From a virus, in IMG/VR virus record IMGVR_UViG_3300042889_002648, positions 36,775 through 100,774 of that record: DNA of 64,000 bases; one strand, written 5' to 3'. The notes under the pieces were generated by a model. That model made no database searches and was not told the origin of the DNA. It worked only from the letters and a program-made list of their open reading frames with translations. Within the stretch, counting starts at the first letter, position 1. Each line of letters opens with the position of its first letter. The position numbers and the translations under genes were made by a program. Of the stretch, positions 7,472 to 43,317 are shown piece by piece.

Positions 7472-7475
7472 AAGT

Positions 7476-7844: not shown

Positions 7845-7863
7845 ATTATAATTTATATGAATC

Positions 7864-8178
7864 TTATTGTGCCAGTAGGTCTGTCACCGATTTGCCTTTT
7901 TCCCAGAACTTGCAGCTCCAATAGCGTGCTTTCCATTTTGGTCCTGGGGCATCATCGCAGCTATGACGTGCGCGGAAGTTTTTAAGACGTGCAGGATCAT
8001 CACGTTTAATTTCCATATTAGGATCACCAAATCCAAGCTTGATTACATTGCCTTTATCATTGCGAACATATACATAAAATTTATGCTTATTGTCGTCGCT
8101 ACGAAACGGCGCATTAAGTGTTACCTTACGCCCATCGTATTCAGCCTCTTCGGAGATATATTCTTTAAAGCGCATCAT
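7864..8178 (-). CDS. Head-packaged protein with capsid-targeting N-terminus
   Basis: A 104-aa protein. Its first residues, MMRFKEYISE, resemble the T4 internal-protein capsid-targeting sequence (MKTYQEFIAE) and end in I-S-E, the prohead-protease cut pattern. The C-terminal half, with MEIKRDDPARLKNFRARHSC and WKARYWSCKFW, is a small Cys-containing domain common in T4-like phages. A role inside the capsid is inferred. Either of two adjacent Met codons could start it. Confidence 0.7.
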   Translation of the reverse strand: MMRFKEYISEEAEYDGRKVTLNAPFRSDDNKHKFYVYVRNDKGNVIKLGFGDPNMEIKRDDPARLKNFRARHSCDDAPGPKWKARYWSCKFWEKGKSVTDLLAQ

Positions 8179-9446: not shown

Positions 9447-9524
9447 TTTTTTATTTACATTTTAAAATTATGTGGTATAATAATATAGATTCAATATAAT
9501 ACAACAACGTAATTTAAATACGCC

Positions 9525-10295
9525 TTAAGATTTGATATTACGTTTTAAAGTATTAATCAATGATGAATCACCTGTAATTATTCCAACAAGTGACAGGAAT
9601 GTATTCATGATTAGATCCTTTTGAGATGGTGTTAAAGTTTTGCCATCTTCAAGATTCTTAACAGCAAGAACCAAAGGTTGAATGTTTGTTTCATCTACCA
9701 GACCAACAGCTGCAAGCTGTTTAAACTTGGTATAGTCAACACTTTCATTGGTCATCTTGACATCGCCATATTCATATTCGCCATCATCAATATTAATATC
9801 GTATTTCTCGTCAACAGCAGTATATAATTCGTCAACCGTTGCATAGATGTTTGAGATAGCCTTTACAATATCGTCATCAATATTTTCTTGATCTGAAATG
9901 CAATCATAAATCTCTTCAGTCATTTCTGTAATTTCATCAAGTAAAGCCAATGCTTCACCTACAGGATCGGTTTCCTCTGCGCCCTCTTTAATGCTGTTGC
10001 TGCGCTTTTGTAACTCCTTTACAATATCGTTAACTTTTGCATATTTTAATGTACCTTCAATGTCAACCAATGAATATGGTTTGGACGCATTATCGGTAAC
10101 TGCAACAAAGATGTCAGCATACTTGCCTGCTCTCATTGGAAGACCATACAATTCGATAATGTTATCGACATTTGTATAGTAGGTGTTATTCCCAGGTTTA
10201 GCTGCTTTAAATCCAAGAGTCTTTAATACGCTCTTAAGTAATTTAATTTCGACTTCAGATGCCGATTCGTTTAGGATATCATTTAGTTTCTTCAT
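9525..10295 (-). CDS. Packaged acidic protein with (I/L)xE N-terminus
   Basis: A 256-aa acidic protein. The start MKKLNDILNE ends in L-N-E, matching the prohead-protease-type signal of its neighbours. The middle (residues 105-185) is strongly acidic, with DEITEMTEEIYDCISDQE. No enzyme motif is visible. It probably travels in the capsid or forms part of the prohead core. Confidence 0.6.
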   Translation of the reverse strand: MKKLNDILNESASEVEIKLLKSVLKTLGFKAAKPGNNTYYTNVDNIIELYGLPMRAGKYADIFVAVTDNASKPYSLVDIEGTLKYAKVNDIVKELQKRSNSIKEGAEETDPVGEALALLDEITEMTEEIYDCISDQENIDDDIVKAISNIYATVDELYTAVDEKYDINIDDGEYEYGDVKMTNESVDYTKFKQLAAVGLVDETNIQPLVLAVKNLEDGKTLTPSQKDLIMNTFLSLVGIITGDSSLINTLKRNIKS

Positions 10296-11302
10296 AGTGA
10301 TTGAATATATTTATTATAAGTTTCTTTAAGTGTTACGATTGACTCCATGTTTGGATTGAGCGATACAAATTCATGAATATGTTCTAGGTCGCAAGAACCT
10401 GTTGCAAGTGCAACAATTTTAATCTTACGTGCAGTCTCTAAGTCAACGGCTTCATCTAACTTATATTCTCCTTTTTTGAGTGTAAGATTAATAACATCGC
10501 CTTTTTTGTCGCTCTTTCTATGCTGAACATTAATGCGCCCATCAGGAAACTTGTGAAAGATATTAGCTGTTTTTCCATGCAATATATTTCCCGGTGCTGT
10601 GATGGTTACAGTACCCATAGAATGAGTACCAGTAGCTTCATCGAGATTTGCGGATTCAGCATAATATTTTGGATCCAAGAAGTTGATCAAATCTGGGATT
10701 TTTGCGTCAACCGTAAATGCATCTGCTTTGTCCACTGCCATTGAATATAGTTTTGGATTCATATTATATAAGGTAATCATTATAGATTGTCCTTTACGCA
10801 ATGCCGGCATTTCCTTTCGCATTTTAGCAGCTGCATCAAGCAGTTCTTCAACATCAATTTTTGGAACAGCTTCTTGTAAAGATTCTTCTTTTACAAGTTT
10901 ACCGGAATTAATGTCATCTTGGTGATCATGGTAATATTCACCACTGTATACAACTCCTCCATTTTTTGCAGCATATTCATACGCACCTTTTCTTGTTTTG
11001 AAAGGTTTGATTTTTGCTTTGGCGTCCTTATTGTAAACAACCCATGATTCACCATAAGCTTCTTCCATTTCAAAATATTCGCTGTATTTTTTGTATGCAG
11101 CTTTTATTTGATCCGTCGTATGTGAAGGATACATCTTTTTGTGTTGAGCTTCAAACTCTTGATATGTTTTTTGTTTCATCTCGGTGTTAAATTGTTGTAT
11201 GCGTTGCCCTGGGGTGTCCTTTATGTATTTATATAATAGGCTAGGTGTACCTTCAAAGCCTGCGCCATATTCTTCATCAAGCTCCAAATTCATGTCCTGC
11301 AA
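10292..11302 (-). CDS. Probable head protein with several protease-type sites
   Basis: A 336-aa protein. Several internal L-x-E-A tetrads (SLQEA near 145, NLDEA near 221, KLDEA near 279) fit the T4 gp21 rule (L/I-x-E, then a small residue), so it may be cut into parts during head maturation. The middle piece contains FTVDAKIPDLINFLDPKYY. The start overlaps the upstream gene by 26 nt; Met4 is an alternative start. Confidence 0.55.
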   Translation of the reverse strand: MQDMNLELDEEYGAGFEGTPSLLYKYIKDTPGQRIQQFNTEMKQKTYQEFEAQHKKMYPSHTTDQIKAAYKKYSEYFEMEEAYGESWVVYNKDAKAKIKPFKTRKGAYEYAAKNGGVVYSGEYYHDHQDDINSGKLVKEESLQEAVPKIDVEELLDAAAKMRKEMPALRKGQSIMITLYNMNPKLYSMAVDKADAFTVDAKIPDLINFLDPKYYAESANLDEATGTHSMGTVTITAPGNILHGKTANIFHKFPDGRINVQHRKSDKKGDVINLTLKKGEYKLDEAVDLETARKIKIVALATGSCDLEHIHEFVSLNPNMESIVTLKETYNKYIQSL

Positions 11303-12260
11303 CTCTTTTCATTTGACGAGTAAATTCATCAAAGTCTGGTTTCTTTTTATAATATTTAATTGTTCGTGCATCGTCATCTTTACCTTTGATGCGCCAATCA
11401 TAACCTGCACTTAAACGCTCAGGATCGGTTGTGCGCACTACACGGCGCTCATAACCATCTTCCCAGCTTTCTTCATAAATAACATCCTGTATAAAAAATT
11501 TAGTATGACCTCCAGTTTCAGAAATGCATGTTATATAGTTAGGCCCACGCTCTTTAATTGTATACGATAGCCCATCTTTTTTAGAAATGATTCTTTCGCC
11601 AATATTGTATATCTCGCCAGAGATATAACGTTCACGTGTTTCACCTAAAGATTGGAATTGTATATGCTTGCGAAAACTATGGCTTTCCTTAAGGCCCATC
11701 CCAGTGCGCACTGCATTAAATAACTCTTTAACTTCCCCAAATGTTTTAGGGCATCCTTCAGCAAATGTCTTTAGGTCATTATTAGCAGCCGCATTACGTT
11801 GTACACTTTCATGTAGCGCTGATGGTGCTGGCACTATTCGTATACCATCAGAAAATTTATAATAACCATGCACACCGCGTATACCATTATATGCATGCAG
11901 CTGTTGTTTAAATTCAACTATATGTTCAGTCCGTACTAACATTGTTAGCTTTGTGTAACCCTCATTATAAGCTGATACCGCAACATCTACGGCATCTTTA
12001 ATATTACAATCACGTATAATATTACGGCCATATTGTGGAAACATCTTGCGCATATACCGTATTTTATCATCATAGTTTAACGGGTGTTCTTCATACCCTT
12101 CAGTTTGAAATGAATATACACGAAGCGTTGCGCTCTTTTTAGAGTGTACACTTGCAGCATTAAGTAGTGCTTCATCGTGTATTGTTGGTGGATTAAACGA
12201 ATCATATATCGCAACAAGTTCACGCGTCTTTTCAGTAATGTATCCTTTAAAGCTCTTCAT
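11277..12260 (-). CDS. HIGH-type nucleotidyltransferase, capsid-targeted
   Basis: A 327-aa protein. After the targeting-like start MKSFKGYITE comes a nucleotidyltransferase domain: AIYDSFNPPTIHDEAL near residue 18 carries the (H/N)-x-x-H-type nucleotide-binding loop of NMN- and pantetheine-adenylyltransferases, though the first His of the motif is Asn-Pro-Pro-Thr-Ile-His. The segment SDGIRIVPAPSALHESVQRNAA near 150 fits the second nucleotide-binding region. The C-terminal third (residues 200-327) looks like a separate basic domain. Substrate unknown; it may be injected with the DNA. Confidence 0.65.
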   Translation of the reverse strand: MKSFKGYITEKTRELVAIYDSFNPPTIHDEALLNAASVHSKKSATLRVYSFQTEGYEEHPLNYDDKIRYMRKMFPQYGRNIIRDCNIKDAVDVAVSAYNEGYTKLTMLVRTEHIVEFKQQLHAYNGIRGVHGYYKFSDGIRIVPAPSALHESVQRNAAANNDLKTFAEGCPKTFGEVKELFNAVRTGMGLKESHSFRKHIQFQSLGETRERYISGEIYNIGERIISKKDGLSYTIKERGPNYITCISETGGHTKFFIQDVIYEESWEDGYERRVVRTTDPERLSAGYDWRIKGKDDDARTIKYYKKKPDFDEFTRQMKRVAGHEFGA

Positions 12261-12265
12261 TATAA

Positions 12266-12754
12266 TTATTTTTTACGCTGAAAGCGAGCTGCATCTTTTG
12301 CGCGAACTTGCGGCAATAGGCGAGCTGCCAAACTCTTAATGATGGTCTTTTTACGTGCAAGTTGTTTTTCAACACCAGCACGTGCGCCAAAGGAAAGATC
12401 TCCTTTATTTTTTCCACCAGTTAGACGCTTTGTAATTTCGGCGCGAGCTGCACGCAATGCACGTGCTTTTAATACTACGTTACTTGCACGGCGACGCAAC
12501 GAGCGCGCACGGCCAATCCTAAGTGCAGACTTGTTGCGACGAAACGATGCGCGTCTAGCCATACGCTGTGCAGCTGTAAGTACTTCTTTAAGTTCAGGTG
12601 TGCTTTCATCAGTTTCAGCACCTTCATCAGCCATGAACGGACCTTTCTTACGTTTGCGATATGCATTAATCATTAGGTCTAGCGGATCATAATCGTATGA
12701 ACCGTCTGTTGGATCAACAGTCATTAGGTCTCGTAATCTTAGTGGTGTTTTCAT
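12266..12754 (-). CDS. Very basic head or DNA-binding protein
   Basis: A 162-aa protein with an acidic-neutral first third and a strongly basic remainder. TAAQRMARRASFRRNKSALR and GRARSLRRRA are an Arg/Ala-rich pattern I recall in head-gene regions of T4-like phages. It could condense DNA or serve as a prohead scaffold. A late-type box lies 10 nt in front. Confidence 0.6.
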   Translation of the reverse strand: MKTPLRLRDLMTVDPTDGSYDYDPLDLMINAYRKRKKGPFMADEGAETDESTPELKEVLTAAQRMARRASFRRNKSALRIGRARSLRRRASNVVLKARALRAARAEITKRLTGGKNKGDLSFGARAGVEKQLARKKTIIKSLAARLLPQVRAKDAARFQRKK

Positions 12755-12763
12755 CGTATAGTA

Positions 12764-12771
12764 TATTTATA
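12764..12771 (-). promoter_or_regulatory. T4-type late promoter box
   Basis: TATAAATA on the minus strand in the 22-nt gap before the basic protein gene at 12266-12754. The leader would be very short. Confidence 0.45.
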
Positions 12772-12776
12772 TATAC

Positions 12777-13244
12777 TTAACCTTTCTTATGGTTTGCCCA
12801 TAAGTCAGCATCACCAGTTGTTCGTGTTTTACCACCAACTATAAAACTATTAACGCGTGCATACGCCCATTGAAATTGTCCTGCTCCCGGGCGATGCCCT
12901 GTTTTCCAAGCAGCCATTCCTCGATCAAATACTTGTTTAAGTATCCCATATGCAATTCCACTTTTTTCAGATTTAGTCTTTAGTCCAGCAAGTTGCGCTT
13001 CTTCATCGAGCGTTTGGTATTGATCAAAATCTACAGATTCTTTACCATATTTTGCAGCATACGCTTTGGTATATTTGGAAGGAACTGTTTCAGCTGAGGC
13101 GTCACCGGGTGCAGGCTTGTATGCCGAAGGATCGTCATCGTCCTTTGATGCTTGACGATTAAATTGTGCAGCCCGACGTGCGCGTGTGCTCTTTGCAAGA
13201 CCAGTATAATAGTCTTCATCTAAATATCTTTTAAAGCTTTTCAT
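12777..13244 (-). CDS. Capsid-targeted protein with DUF5824-like C-terminus
   Basis: A 155-aa protein that starts MKSFKRYLDE (ends L-D-E). The C-terminal half, with GIAYGILKQVFDRGMAAWKT near 97 and WAYARVNSFIVGGKTR near 126, matches my memory of the DUF5824 family of phage head-region proteins. The region between is low complexity. It probably enters the capsid and loses its first 10 residues. Confidence 0.65.
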   Translation of the reverse strand: MKSFKRYLDEDYYTGLAKSTRARRAAQFNRQASKDDDDPSAYKPAPGDASAETVPSKYTKAYAAKYGKESVDFDQYQTLDEEAQLAGLKTKSEKSGIAYGILKQVFDRGMAAWKTGHRPGAGQFQWAYARVNSFIVGGKTRTTGDADLWANHKKG

Positions 13245-13269
13245 ATGTATTGTTTAAATCCTATCATAT

Positions 13270-14322
13270 TTATTTTGCGTATATTCCAGAACCAACCTCT
13301 AGATAAAATTTAGCTTCATTTGCTTCTTCACGCAATTTTGTTCTTATTTGAAAAATTGCTGCTTTTGTGTTCTTGTCGAGAAAAATCAAATTTGATCCTT
13401 TTACTTGTGCTATTAGTTTAACCGATTTTTTGAGTTTGTTAAAATAGTCTTGCGTGATTTCTTTTACAGCACCGCGTTGTATATCAATTACATCTGCCAA
13501 ATCATCACCAAATATATTTTTGCCTAAAAAGTTTAATGCATTGAGCGTAAAACTTGGGCTATTACTATTAAGAAGTATTTTGTCTTTCAAGTCTTCATAC
13601 ATACTTCTAATAAGTGCAAATTTAGCTTTTTGCTCAACAGGACCAACAAACGACTTTGCGAGTCTAACATATTTTTCTTTTGCATCCCATTTTATATTAA
13701 GAGCTTCGGCAATGCCCAACATACCAAAGTATGGTGAAAGACTTGATACGGTAACCGATTCTGACTTCAACGAAAACGGAATATCACCAGATGTTATCTT
13801 TTTATTTCCGTTACGTGTTTGTGCATATATTGTTAATGTGACATCTCCTTTGATTTTTCCGCCTGAGGATTCTCCAGCAATACCATCAGCAATAACAATA
13901 ATGTTTATGATATCTGCAGTTTTATTTTTTAAGAATGTATTTATGGCAGCATCGGCACGACGGACAAATGCAGAATTTTGAACTGCCTTTATGAGCTGAT
14001 CTATCTTCCTATCAATGTTTCCAATATCTTTTGATGACCTATACAAGACATCATAATCTTTACCAAAAGCACCTTGTATAGATTTTGGTTTTAGTCTCAT
14101 TTCAAATGAAACGTTAATAAAGTCAGGCATATTTTTTCCAACCTGACGTTTATTATTGGTCACTACATCATACTTAAATCTTCCTTTTGCAAAAACAGAG
14201 GTATCAATCTTAGTGCGAATTTGATTGAGTTTTTGTTTATCGACTTTTCCATATGCCAAGTACAAACTTAGAGCAATTGTAAAAATGCCTTCAATAACAT
14301 CGCCTTCATTCAATTTGCCCAT
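13270..14322 (-). CDS. Hypothetical phage protein, structural block
   Basis: A 350-aa protein with an N-terminal hydrophobic helix (EGIFTIALSLYLAYG, residues 11-25), a central IINIIVIADGIAGESSGG segment near 140, and a C-terminal KFYLEVGSGIY. It has a long Lys-rich helical middle. A late-type box is 10 nt upstream. I do not recognise the family; a nuclease-like or virion role are both possible. Confidence 0.55.
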   Translation of the reverse strand: MGKLNEGDVIEGIFTIALSLYLAYGKVDKQKLNQIRTKIDTSVFAKGRFKYDVVTNNKRQVGKNMPDFINVSFEMRLKPKSIQGAFGKDYDVLYRSSKDIGNIDRKIDQLIKAVQNSAFVRRADAAINTFLKNKTADIINIIVIADGIAGESSGGKIKGDVTLTIYAQTRNGNKKITSGDIPFSLKSESVTVSSLSPYFGMLGIAEALNIKWDAKEKYVRLAKSFVGPVEQKAKFALIRSMYEDLKDKILLNSNSPSFTLNALNFLGKNIFGDDLADVIDIQRGAVKEITQDYFNKLKKSVKLIAQVKGSNLIFLDKNTKAAIFQIRTKLREEANEAKFYLEVGSGIYAK

Positions 14323-14331
14323 TGTAATATA

Positions 14332-14339
14332 TATTTATA
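14332..14339 (-). promoter_or_regulatory. T4-type late promoter box
   Basis: TATAAATA on the minus strand, 10 nt before the ATG of the 350-aa protein (13270-14322). Confidence 0.45.
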
Positions 14340-14760
14340 ATTTCATAAACATCTTATATAGCAAGGCTTCCATACGCCGCGCTTCTTTTTCCCACGGGCG
14401 TGAATATTCGCATTCTTTACTCTTATAACGTACGCCATGCCATAGTTCATAATCTCCATGATAGACGAGTTCTTTAAGAGTAAATTGTTTTACGTGTACC
14501 AACTCATGAAAGAGCGTAAGTAAGAACTCTTTTGCGCATTGCACAAGATGTAAGTCAATATAATATGTATGTATATCAGTAGTACTATAGCATAATCCAT
14601 AAGCGCCTTCCTTCTCTAACAGGTTGTTTGCGCACTTAACGGTAAGGTATAGACATCTCTTGCGTGGTAACAATTCTTGTAGAGCAAATGTTATTGCTTT
14701 CTTTACTGTCGTTCGCAATTCAGGATCGTGTTTTAATCCATAGACACGTACTCTTATCAT
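14335..14760 (-). CDS. SprT-like zinc metalloprotease domain
   Basis: A 141-aa protein with the SprT/Spartan signature HELVHVKQ near residue 89 (two zinc His and the catalytic Glu) and a downstream WEKEARRME near 128 that can give the third ligand. SprT-like enzymes cut proteins, including DNA-crosslinked ones. It lies between a terminator and the structural block. Confidence 0.75.
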   Translation of the reverse strand: MIRVRVYGLKHDPELRTTVKKAITFALQELLPRKRCLYLTVKCANNLLEKEGAYGLCYSTTDIHTYYIDLHLVQCAKEFLLTLFHELVHVKQFTLKELVYHGDYELWHGVRYKSKECEYSRPWEKEARRMEALLYKMFMKL

Positions 14761-14780
14761 ACAATATTAATTATAAACAA

Positions 14781-14812
14781 TTTTGGCGCTACCATTTCTG
14801 ATAGCGCCAAAA
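14781..14812 (-). terminator. Rho-independent terminator after the AAA ATPase gene
   Basis: Perfect 11-bp stem TTTTGGCGCTA / TAGCGCCAAAA with a 10-nt loop, 22 nt after the ATPase stop on the minus strand, followed by TTGTTTATAATT. The T run is weak. Confidence 0.7.
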
Positions 14813-14834
14813 TGAGTTGGGTTTTTAAAATCTC

Positions 14835-16364
14835 TTATGCGTAATCTTCAATCATACGCGCAAGTTCGCTATCTGGAATTTCAATACCAGCTGCAAGCGC
14901 GCCTGCTGACATATTCAATCCACGTGATAACTTACGAAGGTTTGCGCTTTGCTTGCTCTTACCTTTGCGAAGTAATTCAACAACATGTAATCTTGATTTT
15001 TGGTCCAGTTTCATGCCGTCAGCCAATTCAATGGTGCCAACAATCTTCTCCATGAAATCATAAATTTCCATTTCGGTTGGATCGATGTTAATAATAAGTG
15101 CGCGTGTACGCAGCGCACCATCTGGATCCAATTTATCCAAGCTCAAGTTGGAGATAAAGATAATCTTACCAGTAAATTCAAAGTAACGTGGGATTTGACC
15201 GTTATCGAGAATTTCTTCGTCTGTAAGATCTCCTTCAGGATCAACTACGTTTTTGCCCATCTTGTTCCATACGAGCTTACGTACCTTCTTAGTATCGGTT
15301 GCCGCTTTAAGAAGGTTACGTGCTTCTTGGTCGCCCAATGCATCGTCACTATCATCGAAGAATACAACTTCATTCTTATAACGGAACAACAAGCTATATA
15401 GTCCAGCAGCACTTGCGCTACCTGTATTCTTGAAGTAACCGTTACCATCTCTCAATCCAAGGTCGGCAAGAATCTTTTCTGTGGTGTGTGTTTTACCTAC
15501 GCCGCCTTTACCAGATACAAACAGTGCATTGGATGCGCCGTTTACTGTAAATTTAACAAGGCGCTCAAGATCTTGCAATTGCGCTTCAAAGGATAGGCGT
15601 GTACGTTGATTTTCAAGCTCGTCAATTTGAGCATCTCCTTTATAGCGCTCTATTGAACTACCTTTGGTAATCTTACCTGTTACAATACCAACCTTTTGCA
15701 AGATTTCTTCTTTGCCGCTCTTAAGTGCTTTAAGATCTTTATTAGAGCCAGCCCAGACATACTTGGTGCCTTGCTTGGTAATAAGATCTGGGTATTTCAT
15801 TTCAAGCGCATCAAAAATCTTTACGCCTGAACTTTTAAATGCATTCCAAACTTTACCTTTGCTAAAAGAAGGGTCAACAATCATATCGACAATTTCGTCA
15901 AAGATTGTATCAAAGTCGTATTCAGCTGCCTCATGCAATACGTTTTCATATAGCGGTACACCATCAGCAATAGTGCTAATAGATCCTAGTGATGGTGTGC
16001 CACTGCTAATAATGTCAGCAATCACTGGAAGTGTTTTTACAAGAGATACAGTTTGATCAAATTCAATGTGAAATGGCGCAGATGAGATACCATCCCAATA
16101 GTCAATACTCTCAAGGTTATTTAATCCTGCAGCTCCACTTTGTTTCCAGTTAAAACGTACGCTAAGTCCTTTACGCACTGCATAGAAACGTAATCCAAAA
16201 CCAACACCGTTGGAATTTTGATATTGCTCTAGGCCTGGGTAGCGGAAGAAAACTTTACCAGTCTTCTTTTTAAGATAACGTGAAATAATGAATGCAGCTT
16301 TATTAACACCAGAGGTGGATAGCGCTTCGGATAGGTATTCTTTATAATGATTTAGGCTTGACAT
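14835..16364 (-). CDS. P-loop AAA-type ATPase with capsid-targeting-like start
   Basis: A 509-aa protein. The N-terminus (MSSLNHYKEYLSE) ends in L-S-E, like the packaged proteins. The C-terminal half is an ATPase: Walker A GKGGVGKT near residue 286, Walker B VVFFDDSDD near 335, sensor-like KIIFISNLSLD near 399 and an Arg in GALRTRALI. Residues 1-200 are unrelated to known domains to my eye. T4-like phages of marine origin carry relatives near head genes. The ATPase may act on DNA or on protein complexes early after injection. Confidence 0.7.
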   Translation of the reverse strand: MSSLNHYKEYLSEALSTSGVNKAAFIISRYLKKKTGKVFFRYPGLEQYQNSNGVGFGLRFYAVRKGLSVRFNWKQSGAAGLNNLESIDYWDGISSAPFHIEFDQTVSLVKTLPVIADIISSGTPSLGSISTIADGVPLYENVLHEAAEYDFDTIFDEIVDMIVDPSFSKGKVWNAFKSSGVKIFDALEMKYPDLITKQGTKYVWAGSNKDLKALKSGKEEILQKVGIVTGKITKGSSIERYKGDAQIDELENQRTRLSFEAQLQDLERLVKFTVNGASNALFVSGKGGVGKTHTTEKILADLGLRDGNGYFKNTGSASAAGLYSLLFRYKNEVVFFDDSDDALGDQEARNLLKAATDTKKVRKLVWNKMGKNVVDPEGDLTDEEILDNGQIPRYFEFTGKIIFISNLSLDKLDPDGALRTRALIINIDPTEMEIYDFMEKIVGTIELADGMKLDQKSRLHVVELLRKGKSKQSANLRKLSRGLNMSAGALAAGIEIPDSELARMIEDYA

Positions 16365-18022: not shown

Positions 18023-19201
18023 TTACATTTTGCCGAGTACAACAGATAGAATGTCTGAAACATTTAATCCGGTATTAACACTAATACGTTTAACATTCCC
18101 ATTGTTTTTACATGGAAATACATGATCCTTCGAAACAATTATTGATTTACCGCTTTCGGTTGTAATCTTTACACAATCTTTCATCTTATTATGATGCTTA
18201 AACATTACTGTTTTATATTCATCATTTGCAGTAATTTGGTCACCTAGTTTAACTTCATCGAGTGTTTTAACTTGTCCATCACGCATAGTAACGGATTCAG
18301 TAATAGCAATACATTCACTTGTATCCGTAATTTCGATATCACTGCTGGAATATCCCGCTCTTGTAACTTGAGTTGCGCTCCAGATAGGAACATTAAATTC
18401 AACAGCCAATCCACGAATTTCTTCAGCAATACTTTTGATAAGACTATAAGTATTGACACTACCGCTCAATCCTTTCATGCGACTACTCGCGCAAATGTTT
18501 AGATAATCAATATAAATGATGTCTGGCTCAAACTTCTTTTTCAATTTGAGTTCAAGTAACAATGCGCGAAAGTGACCAACGTGTGCGCTCGCGGTTGGAT
18601 ATTCTTTGACAACAAGTTTACCTTTGGTTTTATCGCTAATACCTTTAACCTTTGTGTTGAATGATGCTTTAGTCAAGTCTTTTAATTGGTCAATACGAAC
18701 ATCAAAAAGATTGGCATCAATACGTTCTGCAATCTTTTCTTCAGCCATTTCCATTGTAATGTATAGTACATTACGACCTTGTGCCAATGCAGCGCTTGCC
18801 ATGTGACACATACCTAAGCTCTTTCCGCAACCCGTATTATGTGAAGAAACACCATCAGTATAGTATCGGTGATTTTCATGCTCAACTTGAATATCAACGA
18901 TTGGAATTTGCTTTCCTGTTTTTGTAACAATACCAATTTGGTATCCGTCTTCAGTCAGATATTGCTGTTTTTTAAGAACTAGATCTTTTGCATATTGCCA
19001 ACCATCAATAGTTTCAAACAAGTGATTTTCATTGACTCGAATAACTTTTCCGCTATTAAGCAATAAAACGTATTCTTCCCACATTCCTTTATCAACAAAT
19101 GCTGATACGGGAACAAAACCATCGGGTGAATCTACTTCTATTGTGTATCCTGCATTCAGGAGCTCTTCAATTTCTTTAATTTTAATAATTTTTTCGGTCA
19201 T
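18023..19201 (-). CDS. gp41-type helicase, middle piece between two split inteins
   Basis: A 392-aa protein in three parts. Residues 1-122 are C-intein 1, ending YYTDGVSSHN. Residues 123-296 are helicase core: TGCGKS completes the Walker A, then LYITMEMAEE near 150, IIYIDYLNI near 214 (Walker B) and IWSATQVTRAGYSSSDIEIT near 272. Residues 297-392 are N-intein 2, starting CIAITESVTM and including SKDHVFPC. Function needs splicing to both partner pieces. A trailing-edge endonuclease gene follows. Confidence 0.92.
   Translation of the reverse strand: MTEKIIKIKEIEELLNAGYTIEVDSPDGFVPVSAFVDKGMWEEYVLLLNSGKVIRVNENHLFETIDGWQYAKDLVLKKQQYLTEDGYQIGIVTKTGKQIPIVDIQVEHENHRYYTDGVSSHNTGCGKSLGMCHMASAALAQGRNVLYITMEMAEEKIAERIDANLFDVRIDQLKDLTKASFNTKVKGISDKTKGKLVVKEYPTASAHVGHFRALLLELKLKKKFEPDIIYIDYLNICASSRMKGLSGSVNTYSLIKSIAEEIRGLAVEFNVPIWSATQVTRAGYSSSDIEITDTSECIAITESVTMRDGQVKTLDEVKLGDQITANDEYKTVMFKHHNKMKDCVKITTESGKSIIVSKDHVFPCKNNGNVKRISVNTGLNVSDILSVVLGKM
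18026..18313 (-). other. N-intein 2 (96 aa)
   Basis: Starts at Cys1 after the extein sequence ITDTSE. Block A is CIAITESVTMRDG, with the TxxH-like block B region around SIIVSKDHVFP. The length is normal for an N-intein split at the usual endonuclease position. Confidence 0.85.
18836..19201 (-). other. C-intein 1 (122 aa, atypical split)
   Basis: Contains nearly the whole intein fold: a block B-like VNENHLF near residue 57, IPIVDIQVEHENHRYYTDG as block F and SSHN as block G, then Thr+1. It pairs with an 18-aa N-intein. Confidence 0.85.
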
Positions 19202-19217
19202 ATAAAGGTGTGATTTG

Positions 19218-19225
19218 TATAAATA
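19218..19225 (+). promoter_or_regulatory. Plus-strand late-type box for the HNH gene
   Basis: TATAAATA on the plus strand, 30 nt before the likely HNH start at 19255. It is the only such box I found on this strand in front of a gene. Confidence 0.45.
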
Positions 19226-19254
19226 TAATGTTAGCTGGAACAGGAATCAATCTT

Positions 19255-20070
19255 ATGAAATTTTACGCTCGAATCTATTATAACATATGTAATGAAAATG
19301 TAAATAACAAAATTCATTATTGTAAAGGATCAAACATACATAAACATCATATCATTCCACGACATGCGGGCGGCGGAGAAGATGAAAGTAATTTTACTTA
19401 CCTTAGTATTAGACAGCATATAGCAGCACATTTCTTATTGTGGAAAATTCATGGTATGGTTAATGACCTACGATCAATGCATATGCTAGGAGCAAATTTA
19501 ACATATGAACAAAGACGTATTGTTGGCAAATGGTGTTATGAGAATAAGATAGGAATGTTTTCAATTGGTAAGGAAGATCGAGCTGAAATTTCACGTAAAG
19601 GAATTAAGACACAAATTAAAAATAAATTAGGCATTCACAATCCAGAAAACTTTTCAAAATTTGCATCACTTGGTGGAAAAGCTTCAATAATTTCGCCCAA
19701 TAACCCATGGGCGTATTGGGCCTCAAAGGAAGGCCGCTCGAAGCGTGGACATATGGGAGGAAAATCACATATTGGTAAATTATGGATTCATAAAAACGAT
19801 GTTATAACACGATGTCTTTATAATGAAATTCAACAAAAAATTGATGAAGGATGGCAATACGGTATGAAAGATGGTGGAAAAGAATATGTGAATAACGGAG
19901 AAAAAACATTTCGTATTGAAACCAATAAGATATTTGAATTGCTTTTGCGTGGTTGGCAATTAGGAAAAGCACGCAATTACCAACCAGATCGCAAGCGGTC
20001 TAAGAAAGAATTTTCTTATGAATCCTTACTCGAATTGGAGTCTCAGGGTGAACACAGCCGGCAAGAATAA
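19255..20070 (+). CDS. HNH homing endonuclease in split-intein gap
   Basis: The one convincing plus-strand gene. The HNH domain is at residues 25-65 of this start (KHHIIPRHAGGGEDESNFTY, then HIAAHFLLWKIHG). The C-terminal part has repeated W-x-x-G DNA-contact modules (KLWIHKNDVITR, EGWQYGMKDGG, YVNNGEKTF, RGWQLGKA) typical of phage homing enzymes. It sits between the N- and C-parts of split intein 1. Its 3' end overlaps the end of the helicase N piece by 71 nt on the other strand. An upstream Met at 19228 or 19210 is possible. Confidence 0.82.
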   Translation: MKFYARIYYNICNENVNNKIHYCKGSNIHKHHIIPRHAGGGEDESNFTYLSIRQHIAAHFLLWKIHGMVNDLRSMHMLGANLTYEQRRIVGKWCYENKIGMFSIGKEDRAEISRKGIKTQIKNKLGIHNPENFSKFASLGGKASIISPNNPWAYWASKEGRSKRGHMGGKSHIGKLWIHKNDVITRCLYNEIQQKIDEGWQYGMKDGGKEYVNNGEKTFRIETNKIFELLLRGWQLGKARNYQPDRKRSKKEFSYESLLELESQGEHSRQE

Positions 20071-37101: not shown

Positions 37102-37303
37102 ATTTTTCCTTCGTTATAATTCTTCTTACTTCAAGAGCTATATCCCCACAAAGTATATTGTCAATTTTGAATCCTATCGAATCATATACGCTAGTGCTTA
37201 TGTATGGTGTGGTTTGATCTGCTGCTGTTTGTCTACATTCACTCTGTACACACTTCCACACATGCTCATACAGAGCTTCATTTATTGCGTATCCTATATT
37301 CAT
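37079..37303 (-). CDS. Non-repeat last gene of repeat cluster 2
   Basis: A 74-aa protein starting MNIGYAINEALYEHVW, with no S-V array. Overlaps the upstream repeat gene by 26 nt, the same as the last pair in cluster 1. This mirrors the 30122-30379 gene. Confidence 0.5.
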   Translation of the reverse strand: MNIGYAINEALYEHVWKCVQSECRQTAADQTTPYISTSVYDSIGFKIDNILCGDIALEVRRIITKEKYEYPRTS

Positions 37304-37487
37304 ATTCTACTATTGTAGCGTTAACTGTGTTCATAACTGAGTTCATAACTGAGTTCCAAACAGAGCGATGTATTGAGTTCCAAACTGAGATATCAACTGA
37401 GTCATAAACTGAGTTATTAACTGAGTCCCAAACTGAGCCGCTAACTGATTTTTCGACTGAGAGATCTATTTCCCGTTTAATATCCAT
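37278..37487 (-). CDS. Tetrapeptide-repeat protein 2-4
   Basis: A 69-aa member: MDIKREIDLSV, units including EKSVSGSVWDSVNNSV, then NATIVEYEYRIRNK. Shares 73 identical nt with 31850-32044. Confidence 0.75.
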   Translation of the reverse strand: MDIKREIDLSVEKSVSGSVWDSVNNSVYDSVDISVWNSIHRSVWNSVMNSVMNTVNATIVEYEYRIRNK

Positions 37488-37755
37488 ATTCTTTCATTGT
37501 AGCGTTAACAGAGTTCTCAACTGAGCTCTCAACTAAGTTCCAAACTGAGCCATGTACTGAGCTCCAAACTGAGTTACTAACCGAGTCTCTAACTGAGCTA
37601 CGAACAGAGACATGTACTGAGACATGTACTAAGCTATGTACTGAGTCCCAAACAGAGTCCCAAACAGAGTCCCAAACAGAGACCCCAACAGAGACCCCAA
37701 CAGAGTTCCAAACAGAGACCCAAACAGATTTCAATATTTTTTCTTCAGTAGTCAT
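37477..37755 (-). CDS. Tetrapeptide-repeat protein 2-3
   Basis: A 92-aa member with a different start, MTTEEKILKSV, and about 18 units. The first half uses TCT for Ser, the second half TCA; ends NATMKEYGY. A near-copy of the start is in the next gene. Confidence 0.75.
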   Translation of the reverse strand: MTTEEKILKSVWVSVWNSVGVSVGVSVWDSVWDSVWDSVHSLVHVSVHVSVRSSVRDSVSNSVWSSVHGSVWNLVESSVENSVNATMKEYGY

Positions 37756-37945
37756 AATTATATTCTAGCATCTGCGCATTAACAGAGTCCCTAACAGAGA
37801 CCCTAACAGAGTTCCAAACAGAGTTCCAAACAGAGACCCCAACAGAGTCCCAAACAGAGTTCCAAACAGAGTTCCCAACAGAGACCCCAACAGAGACCCC
37901 AACAGAGACCCAAACAGATTTCAATATTTTTTCTTCAGTAGTCAT
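37745..37945 (-). CDS. Tetrapeptide-repeat protein 2-2
   Basis: A 66-aa member: MTTEEKILKSV and about 13 units, nearly all with TCT codons, ending NAQMLEYNYDY. The N-terminal 30 codons are duplicated in 37477-37755. Confidence 0.75.
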   Translation of the reverse strand: MTTEEKILKSVWVSVGVSVGVSVGNSVWNSVWDSVGVSVWNSVWNSVRVSVRDSVNAQMLEYNYDY

Positions 37946-38087
37946 AATTATATTCTAACATTTGAGCATTAACAGAGTCCCTAACAGAGTCATAGACTGA
38001 GCCATGTACTGAGTCACTAACTGAGCCATAAACTGAGCCCCAAACAGAGACATTAACTGAGAGATTTATTTTATCGTTAATATTCAT
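37935..38087 (-). CDS. Tetrapeptide-repeat protein 2-1 (first of cluster)
   Basis: A 50-aa member: MNINDKINLSV, eight units, then NAQMLEYNYDY, the same end as 37745-37945. Its last 11 nt overlap the next start. Confidence 0.7.
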   Translation of the reverse strand: MNINDKINLSVNVSVWGSVYGSVSDSVHGSVYDSVRDSVNAQMLEYNYDY

Positions 38088-38089
38088 AT

Positions 38090-38401
38090 TCAATCCCAGT
38101 TCCAGCGGTTACCACTTTTTGTTGGAGCGTCAAGCGGAATAGCGTCATAGTCGGCGACATTCAATGCATCGCGAGTTGCTGCACGATTCTTACTGTTATG
38201 CTCGTCCTTTGTGCTTTGATTAATATTAGTTGCACGCTTATTGTCATGCGTATAGCAACGTGCCAATTCAATAAGCTTACGAGGCGTATATTCTTTGTAA
38301 TCACTCCAGCTAAAATGGAGAACATTGAAGTTACCGGAGTCGAGCTTGACTACTTTCCACTTGTTACGCTTAATGATTTGTATTGCTTCAGACGTGTTCA
38401 T
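38090..38401 (-). CDS. Hypothetical protein
   Basis: A 103-aa protein with EAIQIIKRNKWKVVKLDSGNFNV at residue 5. It ends 2 nt before repeat cluster 2 and may be co-transcribed with it. No family recognised. Confidence 0.55.
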   Translation of the reverse strand: MNTSEAIQIIKRNKWKVVKLDSGNFNVLHFSWSDYKEYTPRKLIELARCYTHDNKRATNINQSTKDEHNSKNRAATRDALNVADYDAIPLDAPTKSGNRWNWD

Positions 38402-39744: not shown

Positions 39745-39871
39745 AATTTTCGTCGTCTTCAAGTCTAACAGATGATTGGATCAAGCTTTCGTGTAGTATC
39801 TCGTTGCCTTCATCATCATATTCGTATCTTTCCCAATATCCACATTCGTCATCACCAATTTGATTTTCCAT
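39713..39871 (-). CDS. Small acidic hypothetical protein
   Basis: A 52-aa acidic protein (MENQIGDDECGYWERYEYDDEG). It overlaps the next start by about 30 nt and begins 6 nt after the last cassette gene of the GC-rich island. It marks where normal phage sequence resumes. Confidence 0.45.
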   Translation of the reverse strand: MENQIGDDECGYWERYEYDDEGNEILHESLIQSSVRLEDDENYETFTRHPLL

Positions 39872-39876
39872 GGTAG

Positions 39877-40221
39877 TTACTGAGGTTTGGGCGTGGTCGG
39901 AGTGGCGCTCTCGCCGCGTGCCTCACCTTGTGCGTTCGGCTCAGAATAAAGGTCATCCAGTTCGCCGTGATCGGGGCAGTAGTAATACGGCTTACCGTCC
40001 CGCCAGTTGATCGAGGACTCCACACAGCACACGGGGCAGAGATTGCGCGGGTATGCCGTGCCGATCATGTCTTCGCAGCGACAATGCCACTCGTCCAGTT
40101 CGTGGTATTTTGCCCATGCTTCCATCACTGGTTGAGCCACCGCAAGAAGCCGAACAAGTCGCGGCAGATCAACCGCCTTGTTGCTGGTGTTTTGGGTATC
40201 GTTTGGCAATTCAGAGTTCAT
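39877..40221 (-). CDS. Cassette gene 1: zinc-binding hypothetical protein
   Basis: A 114-aa protein with CRCEDM near residue 47, CPVCC near 62 and YYYCPDHGEL near 79, so one or two zinc sites. The ends are made by cassette-junction DNA: the first 20 residues (NDTQNTSNKAVDLPRLVR) lie in attC-a and the tail QGEARGESATPTTPKPQ in the left half-site. Confidence 0.6.
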   Translation of the reverse strand: MNSELPNDTQNTSNKAVDLPRLVRLLAVAQPVMEAWAKYHELDEWHCRCEDMIGTAYPRNLCPVCCVESSINWRDGKPYYYCPDHGELDDLYSEPNAQGEARGESATPTTPKPQ

Positions 40222-40280
40222 TGGTGTTTTGGTCGTTTGTTTGGTTGTAGATCGGCGGTGTCTGCGCTGTGGCGTTAGCC
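40149..40280 (+). repeat. attC-like site a
   Basis: R'' GCCGAAC, 5-nt spacer, L'' GCGGCAGA; then L' TCTGCGC, 6-nt spacer, R' GTTAGCC. L'' has one extra G that L' lacks, as expected for an attC extrahelical base. The stop codon of cassette gene 2 lies in the R' box. Confidence 0.78.
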
Positions 40281-40472
40281 AAGAAATTCCTCGGGGCGGA
40301 TGATGTTTTCACCAGGGTCATCGCTTCCGCAGTGGCAGCAGACATACCCGTTTCGGATTACTCGCCCGCAATGGTCGCATTCGACCAGTTCGGGGCATTC
40401 CCCGATTACGGTTTCCATGAGTTGTGCAAGCCATTGGCGGCTACCTGTTTTTAGTTTGCGGAGTTTCTTCAT
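40275..40472 (-). CDS. Cassette gene 2: zinc-ribbon protein
   Basis: A 65-aa protein with CDHCGRVI near residue 32 and CCHCGSDD near 45, a four-Cys zinc ribbon. The stop is TAA within the attC core GGCTAAC. Unknown role. Confidence 0.65.
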   Translation of the reverse strand: MKKLRKLKTGSRQWLAQLMETVIGECPELVECDHCGRVIRNGYVCCHCGSDDPGENIIRPEEFLG

Positions 40473-40483
40473 AATTCGTAAGA

Positions 40484-40575
40484 GGCTAACAAGTGAATGC
40501 TGGCAACGGCGGGAAGTTGCCTGTTTGGTTTATTCGGAGTCCAGCGCCCGCCGCGCCAGATCTTTGTCGTTCGGC
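40484..40575 (+). repeat. attC-like site b
   Basis: R'' GGCTAAC, 6-nt spacer, L'' ATGCTGGC; L' GCCAGAT, 7-nt spacer, R' GTTCGGC. The left arm has an extra G, and GGCGGG pairs with CCCGCC further in. Confidence 0.76.
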
Positions 40576-40638
40576 AGAGAACTCGCAGCCTTGCTATTTT
40601 CTCTTCTCTGTTTTTGTCTGTCATTTCTTCGAGACCAG

Positions 40639-40860
40639 TCATGAGTTTATTTCAGTTGTTCTATGGTCTCCGCAATAGCACCAATGATACCTCATGGGGG
40701 TTCTTTTCCCGATAATGATTGTGCATCCGAGATTCCATTTGTGGACGTGTCCTTTTTGAATGCTTTTCTTGTTAGACCTTCCGTTTCTTCGCTGACGACG
40801 TATCTTTGTGATTGTTTTCTTGAGGTGTTGGTTCATTTTATTGTTTGTTGTTCCGAACAT
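40639..40860 (-). CDS. Cassette gene 3: small His/Cys protein
   Basis: A 73-aa basic protein with HVHKWNLGC near residue 38 and HWCYCGDH near 59, possible zinc ligands. Met9 is an alternative start. This unit is less GC-rich than its neighbours. Confidence 0.45.
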   Translation of the reverse strand: MFGTTNNKMNQHLKKTITKIRRQRRNGRSNKKSIQKGHVHKWNLGCTIIIGKRTPMRYHWCYCGDHRTTEINS

Positions 40861-40905
40861 TCCGCATCAAGCAACGCTGGGCGTGCCTGTGCTTGGCTGT
40901 TGTGC
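40852..40905 (+). repeat. attC-like site c
   Basis: The shortest site (54 bp): R'' TCCGAAC, R' GTTGTGC, with ATCAAGC pairing to GCTTGG. Less regular than the others. Confidence 0.5.
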
Positions 40906-41264
40906 TAATAAAGGTTCTCGCTGAACAGCCGCTCGCCATCGCCCCCGCAGCGTCGACGGACTTGGTTCTGATCGACGGCGACGATCCACGCTTCTTCACG
41001 GGTCATCCAGTCCCCGAACTGATCCACGAATCCTTGATCCCATGCTTTGAAGTCGTGACCCATAGCATTGGCTTGCACCCTCATGAGCTTGTCCCAGTGC
41101 CGAGCACCGCAGATGATTAGCAGCTTGTTCACACGGTGCCGATTAGCAGCGCATACCACGCGGCGAGGGGTCTTTGTGTAGTCGGGCTTCCACTCGGGTT
41201 CGGAAGAAGCACCACAAGACGGTGAGCCCAACGAATCGGGCGGTGGAGTTGGTTTTGTATTCAT
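40905..41264 (-). CDS. Cassette gene 4: conserved small phage/bacterial protein
   Basis: A 119-aa protein. RRVVCAANRHRVNKLLIICG, QGFVDQFGDWMTREEAW and the end RRRCGGDGERLFSENLY match a widespread small protein of phages and bacteria that I remember without a known activity. The first 25 residues (PTPPPDSLGSPSCGASSEP) come from attC-d. Confidence 0.7.
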   Translation of the reverse strand: MNTKPTPPPDSLGSPSCGASSEPEWKPDYTKTPRRVVCAANRHRVNKLLIICGARHWDKLMRVQANAMGHDFKAWDQGFVDQFGDWMTREEAWIVAVDQNQVRRRCGGDGERLFSENLY

Positions 41265-41291
41265 GATCTTTTCTCGCCCGATTCGTGGGCT
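41226..41291 (+). repeat. attC-like site d
   Basis: R'' GCCCAAC and R' GTGGGCT frame a nearly perfect stem: GAATCGGGCG pairs with CGCCCGATTC. One extra A is present in the left arm. The ATG of cassette gene 4 is in the loop. Confidence 0.75.
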
Positions 41292-41929
41292 ACCTCGACG
41301 TTAGCTCCAATAATCGGCCATCCCATATCAGCCACAAGACTCTCGGCCTCCTCCTTAGTTGGTAGCGCATCCATCCAGAATCCGTCCTCCAACGTAATCG
41401 CCCACTGGACATCTCCCGTCTCGTCGGTTTCGTATATTTCCACGGGTTCCCCTGCTCGTCGAATCGCCTCCTTGTATCCCGTGGGACATTCCTTGAGGAA
41501 CCGAATCGCCCAAGAAGAGCTAACAAGGTGGTCGAGGACAACGGGCGGGGCGGTGTGTGTCGAAGTTTCCATGTGCTTAGAGAGTTTATGAGGTATCGGA
41601 GTGGCGCTTTCCGCCCGTGCCTCACCTTGATCGTTCGCCAAAGAAACAAGAACGTCCCCGTGGCAGGCTTGCGGAGCGCACCAGCACCCCAACACTTTTC
41701 CGCGCAGTTCATGCAGCGCAGCCATGAGATGCGGTTGAGTTACTACCCATTCACGGTATTTTCGGATCACGGTTTCCCGGTCGCCGTCCTTCCCAATCTC
41801 AAACGGGTTTCCCCATTTCGACGGCCTGCCGATACACACGTCATGCTTCGACCGTTTGCAGTGAACCACAAATGGCGAACAAGGCGGTGGAGGACAACAG
41901 CCTCCCGTTGGGTCTTTTGGTGTATTCAT
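41261..41929 (-). CDS. Cassette genes 5+6 read as one frame: DUF4326 protein fused to unknown
   Basis: A 222-aa frame. Residues 20-99 are a whole DUF4326 domain: VVHCKRSKHDVCIGRPSKWG, then GKVLGCWCAPQACHGDVLV. Residues 100-118 (QGEARAESATPIPHKL) are encoded by attC-e, which lies inside the frame. From Met119 (41572) a second unit starts, with EYETDETGDVQWAITLEDGF-like sequence (here IYETDETGDVQWAITLEDGF). It may be one fused protein or two; the second may start at 41572. The first has no stop before attC-e ends. Confidence 0.7.
   Translation of the reverse strand: MNTPKDPTGGCCPPPPCSPFVVHCKRSKHDVCIGRPSKWGNPFEIGKDGDRETVIRKYREWVVTQPHLMAALHELRGKVLGCWCAPQACHGDVLVSLANDQGEARAESATPIPHKLSKHMETSTHTAPPVVLDHLVSSSWAIRFLKECPTGYKEAIRRAGEPVEIYETDETGDVQWAITLEDGFWMDALPTKEEAESLVADMGWPIIGANVEVAHESGEKRS
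41518..41639 (+). repeat. attC-like site e (inside the DUF4326 frame)
   Basis: R'' AGCTAAC, R' GTTCGCC; AAGGTG pairs with CACCTT, and GGGCGG with CCGCCC. The left arm is longer by several bases. This site is in frame and open, so translation can pass through it. Confidence 0.7.
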
Positions 41930-41971
41930 GATTTTTTGTCGGGACTCTGTAAGTCACCTTGGGCGTTGTGC
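41874..41971 (+). repeat. attC-like site f
   Basis: R'' GGCGAAC, R' GTTGTGC; AAGGCGGTG pairs with CACCTT with extra bases on the left. Both the stop of one gene and the ATG of the next lie in it. Confidence 0.68.
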
Positions 41972-42204
41972 TGAATAAATTCGTGCGGGAACTCCTCGCT
42001 GAATCCGTAGTGTTCCCTGAACTCTTCCCCCGTCATCGGATCGTTTCTTGCAGCCATCAATCCGTCTGTGGTATCAACCGTTCTCAGGACATATCTGCGT
42101 TCCATCCTGTTGCGGTCGATAGTGACCACAAAAGGCCACCCGTCAAAATCAACGGCACAACAAGCCGCATCACGCAACCCGCTGGAAGTCTGTTCTTTAT
42201 TCAT
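41926..42204 (-). CDS. Cassette gene 7: hypothetical protein
   Basis: A 92-aa protein with FVVTIDRNRMERRYVLRTVD in the middle and EFIQHNAQGDLQSP encoded by attC-f at the end. The first 15 residues fall in attC-g. No family recognised. Confidence 0.55.
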   Translation of the reverse strand: MNKEQTSSGLRDAACCAVDFDGWPFVVTIDRNRMERRYVLRTVDTTDGLMAARNDPMTGEEFREHYGFSEEFPHEFIQHNAQGDLQSPDKKS

Positions 42205-42242
42205 GGTTTTGAGTGGGCGGGTGCGTGTGCTTTGCGTTCGGC
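42155..42242 (+). repeat. attC-like site g
   Basis: R'' GCACAAC, spacer AAGCC, left arm GCATCACGCAACCCGC; right arm GCGGGTGCGTGTGC, spacer TTTGC, R' GTTCGGC. The left arm matches the right except for two extra bases (T and A), a textbook attC feature. Confidence 0.8.
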
Positions 42243-42508
42243 AGCGATGCCATCACATCGACGTTCGGTGAAGAAATTACAACGAGCACGCCACACAGTC
42301 CCGCCATCCATCCAACGGACAGTCCGAGGGCAGCAGCGCACCATGCAACTAAGTCAGCATGACCGCCTAGCCCGTATGTGAATACAGTGATTCCACTGAG
42401 CAAGGGCGTGCAGATTAGCGAAGCCGCTAGGTTATTCCAAACACACCGAACAAGTCGCTCCTGAGCAACCGCGCCCGCCGTGTTATTTGAGTCTGATTCT
42501 GTTTTCAT
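42197..42508 (-). CDS. Cassette gene 8: two-helix membrane protein
   Basis: A 103-aa protein with two membrane helices (LICTPLLSGITVFTYGLGG and WCAAALGLSVGWMAGLCGV). The tail NAKHTHPPTQNHE is attC-g sequence. Small membrane proteins are common in integron cassettes. Confidence 0.6.
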   Translation of the reverse strand: MKTESDSNNTAGAVAQERLVRCVWNNLAASLICTPLLSGITVFTYGLGGHADLVAWCAAALGLSVGWMAGLCGVLVVISSPNVDVMASLPNAKHTHPPTQNHE

Positions 42509-42575
42509 ATTGTTGTAAATTGAACATGTCGATACAGAACACGGCTATTGCCGCTCCTGATCTTGCCTGTTCGGC
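42445..42575 (+). repeat. attC-like site h
   Basis: R'' ACCGAAC and R' GTTCGGC; inner arms GCCGTGTT / AACACGGC are perfectly complementary. The L boxes are less regular than elsewhere. Confidence 0.6.
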
Positions 42576-42715
42576 AGACAATTATTACATTTGGGCTTTC
42601 CACTAAAAACACGCCACCCAGCAGACCACGCCTGTTCCACGCATTCAGCCTTGGTCTTACAGTAAAACCCCTCACCACCGCACCCGCTTTGGCAGAAGAT
42701 TCGCCACTCACGCAT
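42545..42715 (-). CDS. Cassette gene 9: zinc-binding protein with strong RBS
   Basis: A 56-aa protein with CQSGCGGEGFYCKTKAEC near residue 8 and KCNNCLPN near 45. The start MREWRIF is fixed by GGAGG five bases before it. Longer in-frame starts (42811, 42889) would only add residues encoded by attC-i. Confidence 0.65.
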   Translation of the reverse strand: MREWRIFCQSGCGGEGFYCKTKAECVEQAWSAGWRVFSGKPKCNNCLPNRQDQERQ

Positions 42716-42761
42716 TGTTCCTCCATTGTAATCTTTGAAGGTTAAGTGCGGAATCAAAGAA

Positions 42762-42847
42762 GCCGAACAATTCGTGAGAGGCAACGCCTCGGAGTCTGTT
42801 GGTGTATTCATAGTCGTTATTGGCGTGCCTCCACAGAGGCGTTCGCT
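42762..42847 (+). repeat. attC-like site i
   Basis: R'' GCCGAAC, spacer AATTC, L'' GTGAGAGGC; L' GCCTCCAC, spacer AGAGGC, R' GTTCGCT. L'' carries one extra A. The spacer sequence AATTC is the one seen in classic attC sites. Confidence 0.82.
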
Positions 42848-43122
42848 GAATCGTAATTGCGGAACTCTGGAGTGCCGCGCCAGTTCCATTCGCGGTAGGT
42901 TTCATCAGCACCCACGGGGCAGTTGAGCCACATGCAGGAGTAGCAAGGTTCCTCGACGTGGACATGCGCCCAAAGACCTCCGTAGAGGCGACGATACCAC
43001 TCATGGTTCCCAAGAAAACATGCAAACCAGCCCCAGCGAACAAGGCGGCGCATCCATTCGGTCCAAATGGCTTGGCGAGATTTGACGCTCTTTAGTGTTT
43101 CAACTCGTTCTTCGCTGATCAT
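42817..43122 (-). CDS. Cassette gene 10: His/Trp/Cys-rich protein
   Basis: A 101-aa protein, with FLGNHEWYRRLYGGLWAHVH near residue 36 and CYSCMWLNC near 60. Its 3' end runs into attC-i (SANASVEARQ). The start is like that of the phage gene next upstream (MISEE / MINEE), so the 5' end may be phage-derived. Confidence 0.6.
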   Translation of the reverse strand: MISEERVETLKSVKSRQAIWTEWMRRLVRWGWFACFLGNHEWYRRLYGGLWAHVHVEEPCYSCMWLNCPVGADETYREWNWRGTPEFRNYDSANASVEARQ

Positions 43123-43137
43123 AATATAAGTTTAATG

Positions 43138-43287
43138 TTAACCCCAAAGAATTGATTTCATAAGTTCCCAACGCTGACGAAGCAATTCGGTATATTCAAA
43201 TAGTTGATCTTCGTCGAGACACTCAATATTGTTCAATTCGCGAATACGTTTTTCAATAAGATTAAATTCAATTTCTTCGTTGATCAT
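43138..43287 (-). CDS. Small hypothetical protein
   Basis: A 49-aa acidic helical protein (MINEEIEFNLIEKRIRELNN). A/T-rich like normal phage DNA, so it lies just outside the island. Confidence 0.5.
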   Translation of the reverse strand: MINEEIEFNLIEKRIRELNNIECLDEDQLFEYTELLRQRWELMKSILWG

Positions 43288-43317
43288 AATATATAGTGTT
43301 ATTTGAGTTACGAGTTC

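Follow-up and report, generated by a model that had tools for sequence, protein, structure and literature searches.

Integrons are known as bacterial devices in which each cassette consists of a gene followed by a non-coding recombination site, attC. The substrate of the integron integrase (IntI) is the folded bottom strand of attC, which it cleaves in the R' box between AA and C (G^TT on the top strand). In canonical attC sites, e.g. that of aadA7, it is the left arm of the top strand that carries the extrahelical bases. The locus described here is an attC array in viral DNA, found in a stretch of 64,000 nucleotides (the window, positions 36,775 to 100,774 of the IMG/VR record IMGVR_UViG_3300042889_002648). 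At 39877-43122 of the window about ten short open reading frames (ORFs), all on the minus strand, are separated by palindromic sites at their junctions. In our reading, to which we give a probability of about 0.83, a T4-like phage took up a cluster of attC sites lacking an integron integrase (CALIN), and the source was a family of integrons, borne by phages and prophages, whose ORFs are inverted and frame-locked.

The literature already holds phage CALINs: 17 are reported by Qi et al. 2023 (PMC9892861), in whose assays IntI1 recombined five of the six phage sites examined, and the statement of an earlier note on this DNA, that few, if any, phage examples are known, is outdated. The CALINs of TJE1, PH101, P12002L and MW202573 (PMC9892861) resemble the window, being attC clusters without an integrase in virulent or uncharacterised phages, with methyltransferase cassettes. 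In that paper TJE1 and PH101 are described as typical arrays, whereas the window shows eight firm sites, inverted ORFs and a frame lock. Canonical integrons, whether sedentary or mobile (Vibrio, class 1, Verrucomicrobiales), share the attC fold with the window, namely R boxes, spacers, L boxes, two extrahelical bases on one arm, and a variable loop, and IntI with an additional domain is present both in them and in the window's relatives. A canonical ORF has the direction of the attC top strand and finishes at R'' or upstream of it, whereas the ORFs of the window lie antisense, begin in the loop, and pass through R' in a fixed frame. The reverse integron of Treponema denticola (PMC3607928, PMC4909258) has intI and cassette genes co-directional, as in the phage family. 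There, however, intI is transcribed toward attI, whereas in the phage family the array lies 5' of intI with the genes running toward it, and it is the ORFs, not intI, whose direction is reversed with respect to attC. Searches of the open literature (subscription papers and preprints were outside the scope) gave no account of arrays that are inverted and frame-locked, and the architecture, widespread in viral DNA, is apparently undescribed.

The sites were judged with a covariance model (R1) of the same kind as in IntegronFinder and HattCI, built in this analysis from 21 attC sites of other contigs, with the window sequence excluded from training. The training contigs were reached via shared N-terminal leaders, i.e. 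by likeness to the window, and their sites were picked by a scan. Nothing passed a first arm-pairing regular-expression scan with a folding criterion; its replacement returned an excess of chance sites at low thresholds and served only for the choice of training sites. In the R1 structure seven R-box pairs are followed by paired stretches of 3, 6 and 5 bp, each separated from the next by one extrahelical base; the second of these bases is A in 21/21 training sites. Covariation in the training alignment is strong, with a score of 0.525 against 0.179 after shuffling and no more than 0.134 when the structure is slid.

In the 64-kb window R1 finds eight attC sites between 40149 and 42847, all on the plus strand, with E values from 4e-13 to 2e-4; the rest of the window gives no further match at E<=5, and the whole 100.8-kb record gives no matches beyond the same eight. 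With filters off, site d (14.6 bits, E 0.013) and the partial site k (11.1 bits, E 0.09) are added, and the strand contrast is seen at site j, which scores 47.5 bits on the plus strand and 9.9 bits on the minus strand, the best minus-strand score. The array is composed of eight firm attC sites, one marginal site (d), and two half-sites (a and k), so that of the nine attC-like sites in the earlier note eight stand firmly, the ninth being marginal. With eight sites in 2.7 kb, it exceeds the two or more within a few kb that define a CALIN. The R'' and R' boxes with AAC/GTT cores and the pairing L boxes described earlier at the gene junctions are present, as are the extra bases on one arm, which lie in the left arm of the plus strand (3 bp, extra base, ~6 bp, extra base) as in canonical attC; by eye, sites c, h and j show two extrahelical bases at the same spacing. 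Pairing covaries on alignment A3 (0.520 vs 0.167 shuffled), although this alignment was fitted to the model and leans towards it. No Rfam family matches at the gathering threshold. The high GC content claimed for the region also holds (51-55% at 40-43 kb vs ~39% for most of the window), and not only gene ends, as previously proposed, but also gene starts fall within the sites; most hairpins of the array are located within ORFs. The attC array in this phage is real.

The earlier note overlooked the direction of the ORFs, every one of which is opposite to the attC top strand. The longest ORF between neighbouring sites is antisense to attC in 95/107 intervals (antisense:sense 7:0 in the window, 27:2 in prophages, and 61:10 in viral contigs), while the canonical comparison, L165 and L173 (L and G numbers are our own labels), gives 1:5. 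All seven window intervals are antisense, and none has the canonical arrangement of an ORF sense to attC and upstream of R''. R1 places canonical attC on the gene strand in a Vibrio phage (L165), a Shewanella phage (L166), and Verrucomicrobiales chromosomal loci (L173 and L178), and its matches in the window and the prophage relatives are antisense to the genes. The ORF start lies within an attC site for six of the eight window cases. In a Verrucomicrobiales contig (L174, 5442-5894) a leader-type ORF (MNTTQSPETE..) antisense to attC is found beside oppositely oriented ORFs; this contig carries a different IntI, and its orientation is possibly mixed.

The reading frame was followed for the longest ORF entering each site from upstream on the coding strand, in respect to the phase of AAC in the R' core. 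AAC is in frame, as an Asn codon, in 105 of 114 ORFs (72:7 viral, 27:2 prophage, 6:0 window), and a stop is found inside the site for 105 of the 114 entering ORFs. After removal of near-duplicates and the addition of L283 and L289 the ratio is 109:10 over 38 loci, with a binomial p of ~2e-40 against one third, which is overstated because loci of related phages are not fully independent; the in-frame ratio holds in nearly every contig. In the window, all six callable sites are at phase 0. At R'' the phase varies: when window, viral and prophage sites are pooled, the three frames occur 32, 31 and 17 times. A phase fixed at R' but mixed at R'' independently places the exchange point at R', where an ORF would meet a new partner each time, while at R'' leader and body would travel together. 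The window has the properties of the inverted family, i.e. ORFs antisense to attC, starts in the loop, and AAC in frame.

The same counts bear on a simpler explanation, in which the array is an ordinary captured CALIN, canonical in kind, with its genes reversed by happenstance and with coding overlap and frame as functionless side effects of compact phage genes. Phage genes do frequently overlap, and canonical cassette ORFs that end inside attC are known. Moreover, CALINs in phages are on record (PMC9892861). Compactness, however, predicts neither the antisense orientation of 95/107 intervals nor the AAC ratio of 109:10, and the phase is conserved at R' but not at R''; we consider this explanation improbable.

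In the captured, inverted and frame-locked CALIN that we prefer, each ORF begins in the loop of its attC hairpin, the L''/R'' arm encoding a short N-terminal leader, and continues through the body of the cassette. At the following site it passes the R' core, reading AAC as a codon, and usually stops in the arm or loop, where the next ORF begins. As the predicted IntI cut falls within the R' core (AA^C on the coding strand), at a fixed codon position, a joined cassette would keep the frame and gain a new C-terminal tail. The tail of each protein would be encoded by the neighbouring cassette, whose loop would then offer the next start. In this layout attC probably serves three ends at once, namely recombination, the stop tail of one protein, and the translation start of the next. 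Transcription may occur within the leftward operon of the phage, by read-through from phage promoters, and the cassettes may have been moved by IntI acting in trans, from the host or a co-resident prophage.

The inverted design is common to ~40 other viral or prophage contigs. A DNA pattern taken from the attC left arm matched 80 viral stretches, and ~36 contigs have model-confirmed sites, a count that is no census since the pattern favours similar sites. An integron integrase (TIGR02249) is present in five of the 36 model-confirmed viral contigs. Arrays with IntI directly downstream, pointing the same way as the genes, are those of L151, L152, L156 (a prophage of Luteolibacter marinus), L157 (a prophage of Haloferula luteola, with the IntI-linked array beside phage head genes), and L179, as well as L283 and L289. 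The IntI of L146 scores 253.9 bits against the TIGR02249 cut-off of 265, and that of L289 passes with 274.5. The integrases of the arrays do not form one tight clade (the branches are long), and the closest integrase type is rare in Verrucomicrobiota, found in 1 of 388 genomes at E<=1e-60. The best complete inverted example is L289 (G671, IMGVR_UViG_3300017707_001413), with ~16 attC sites at 7420-15794, an adjacent IntI, and co-directional genes. In MW202573 (L293) two weak R1 sites (2069-2132 and 3670-3738; E 0.004 and 0.05) are antisense to the genes; ..SNV.. is read across one AAC core, and another ORF end reads ..PNV before the stop. Antisense sites with AAC in frame suggest that the architecture may already sit in the published phage set (PMC9892861), unremarked in the part of that report considered here.

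Three further loci are of note. An integron-type integrase ends a run of small overlapping ORFs in Virus Rctr41k (KX853513, L294, 2317-5678), in which R1 found no attC. A 196.7-kb viral contig (L288/L259), with 36% GC over the portion examined, belongs to a second large AT-rich phage and has at least four antisense attC sites at the contig end, with no IntI found in it. In L083, L084 and L085 DUF4326 genes follow only the left half of attC j, apparently single cassettes captured with a truncated site; L083 and L084 were rejected as full arrays, having half-sites only.

RNA-level translational couplers or attenuators in phage operons could likewise take the form of hairpins that sit between genes of transcribed operons and hold start and stop codons in the loop; the likeness to attC would then be convergent. 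ATGA overlaps at the window junctions 41926-41929 and 41261-41264 fit such a role (the 4-base overlap was not used as general evidence, as its flag checked the next base only). However, integron integrase genes adjoin such arrays in several contigs, the AAC/GTT core of the R box is invariant, the extrahelical bases have the positions typical of attC, the same model detects true Vibrio and Verrucomicrobiales attC, and unrelated genes are flanked by near-identical sites. An RNA element of this kind is therefore very unlikely. Least credible of all is a chimera in which assembly joined phage DNA to that of a bacterial integron, suggested by the abrupt GC step and sharp ends and rejected on a second viral contig (G002, 73 kb) that has the same 3901 bp including the phage flanks at 100%, the array ends being moreover fused to phage gene starts.

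The carrier of the array is a virulent phage, T4-like, with UvsX relatives in Acidovorax and Stenotrophomonas phages and an RNA ligase/tail-fibre attachment protein. Sites c, e, f, g and h have partner attC sites in other contigs (80-96.7% identity) beside different genes; no plasmid copies of site c were found. The earlier note had proposed to look for the array and IntI in related phages: neither attC nor the array was found in the available contigs of the phage's relatives, which are mostly fragments, and IntI stands beside similar arrays in other contigs. In the nearest relative, G006, 5.4 kb correspond to 15 kb of the window, marking a hypervariable region. G006 is the only relative spanning it, and no clean empty site is seen among the relatives. 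At the right end, the start of a phage gene (ATGATCANCGAAGAA), part of repeat D9 (43108-43128 and 43273-43293, 95%), apparently opens the first array ORF; at the left end, a phage gene starts at 39871, 6 bp past the last array stop.

Several observations weigh against the reading of a captured, frame-locked CALIN. No IntI or tyrosine recombinase was found in the 100.8-kb record, which may be incomplete (the array is classed as a CALIN for the lack of an integrase). The G002 copy, a separate assembly not counted as a separate sample, is identical, so that no cassette gain or loss is seen. The borders of the array are half-sites with no clean G^TT cut, and together with the phage gene starts at the ends this means that entry or later loss did not proceed by clean IntI cutting; homologous or illegitimate recombination may have acted at the borders. 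In L083/L084 the leader of ORF 9, MNTPTDSEALPLTNCSA, stands in unchanged phase before a DUF4326 body; such head swaps at R'' mean that R' is not the sole exchanged junction. ORF 6 is a read-through of two cassettes, the incoming ORFs end at the R box in sites b and d, and the gene calls are mechanical. Between the two proposals of the earlier note, capture of an array by the phage is supported by the attC model, by sister sites of up to 97% identity beside different genes in other viral contigs, by the foreign GC content, and by relatives without sites, whereas evolution by cassette exchange within the phage is not, as the record has no IntI and the sole other copy is identical.

The individual features are given from left to right, with ORFs on the minus strand and sites on the plus strand throughout. 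Half-site a (39897..39940; GTGCCTCACCTTGTGCGTTCGGC) forms the left array end and consists of L' and R' only, the left arm being absent; it is 82% identical over 40 nt to an attC of L142. ORF 1 (39877..40221, 114 aa) is zinc-ribbon-like, with a weak Pfam zinc-ribbon match below the cut-off and the tail ..PNAQGEARGES... AttC b (40149..40280; 39.5 bits, E 1.5e-7) provides, within its R box, the TAA stop of ORF 2 (40275..40472, 65 aa, with CxxC pairs). ORF 3 (40469..40642, 57 aa) reads through attC c (40484..40575; 61.9 bits, E 4e-13), which is 96.7% identical over 92 nt to the attC of L240 and 92% to that of L205; the attC-coded part of the protein is 88-93% identical in the same two loci. ORF 4 (40639..40836, 65 aa) is followed by the marginal attC d (40852..40905), which is short (~55 nt) and has no coding overlap. 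ORF 5 (40905..41264, 119 aa) matches phrog_839 (E 8e-33), and its leader, MNTKPTPPPDSLGSPSCGAS, encoded by attC e (41211..41306; 49.5 bits, E 5e-10; 83% over 70 nt to L142), is matched in L142-L146. ORF 6 (41261..41929) joins two cassettes in frame via attC f (41518..41639; 44.5 bits, E 9e-9), a site 86% identical to L142 over 107 nt. The first is a DUF4326 cassette (PF14216, E 5e-28), and the second (41261-41572, METSTHTAPP..) has its start inside site f.

AttC g (41874..41971; 42.5 bits, E 3e-8) is 86% identical to L223 and 85% to L226. ORF 7 (41926..42204, 92 aa) ends with HNAQGDLQSPDKKS before the stop, and attC h (42155..42242; 53.0 bits, E 7e-11) is 80% identical to the L186 attC. ORF 8 (42197..42508, 103 aa) has hydrophobic segments and the terminal tail PNAKHTHPPTQNHE. 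In attC i (42445..42575; 27.2 bits, E 2e-4) the arms are poorly paired, perhaps as in a hybrid. ORF 9 (42545..42811, 88 aa) carries the leader MNTPTDSEALPLTNCSAS, encoded by attC j (42762..42847); a longer frame (42545-42889) matches phrog_926 with E 9e-4. The left half of attC j is 93% identical in L083/L084, and its first 30 nt are 93% identical in L085. ORF 10 (42817..43122, 101 aa) takes its start apparently from a phage gene (ATGATCANCGAAGAA repeat), and half-site k (43035..43056), comprising R''-L'' only, forms the right array end.

Elsewhere in the window, a helicase-like ORF (18023-20070) carries intein-like motifs near its start and its end, and the other strand holds an HNH-like ORF at 19210-20070, which suggests inteins or a homing element. 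At 37278-38093 adjacent paralogous ORFs form a row of short degenerate repeat proteins (SVWDSVWNSV..).

In a wider sense, we lean towards regarding these arrays as a distinct virus-borne integron class with a protein-coding recombination site, in which open-ended ORFs would share one phase at the cut and take their tail from the downstream cassette, which would also give the translation restart, so that viruses could shuffle translationally coupled protein modules. Dozens of viral contigs have a coding site, reversed orientation, and a frame fixed at the predicted cut. This points to a standard format in which phage accessory genes, including several DNA methyltransferases and a helicase, would be exchanged.

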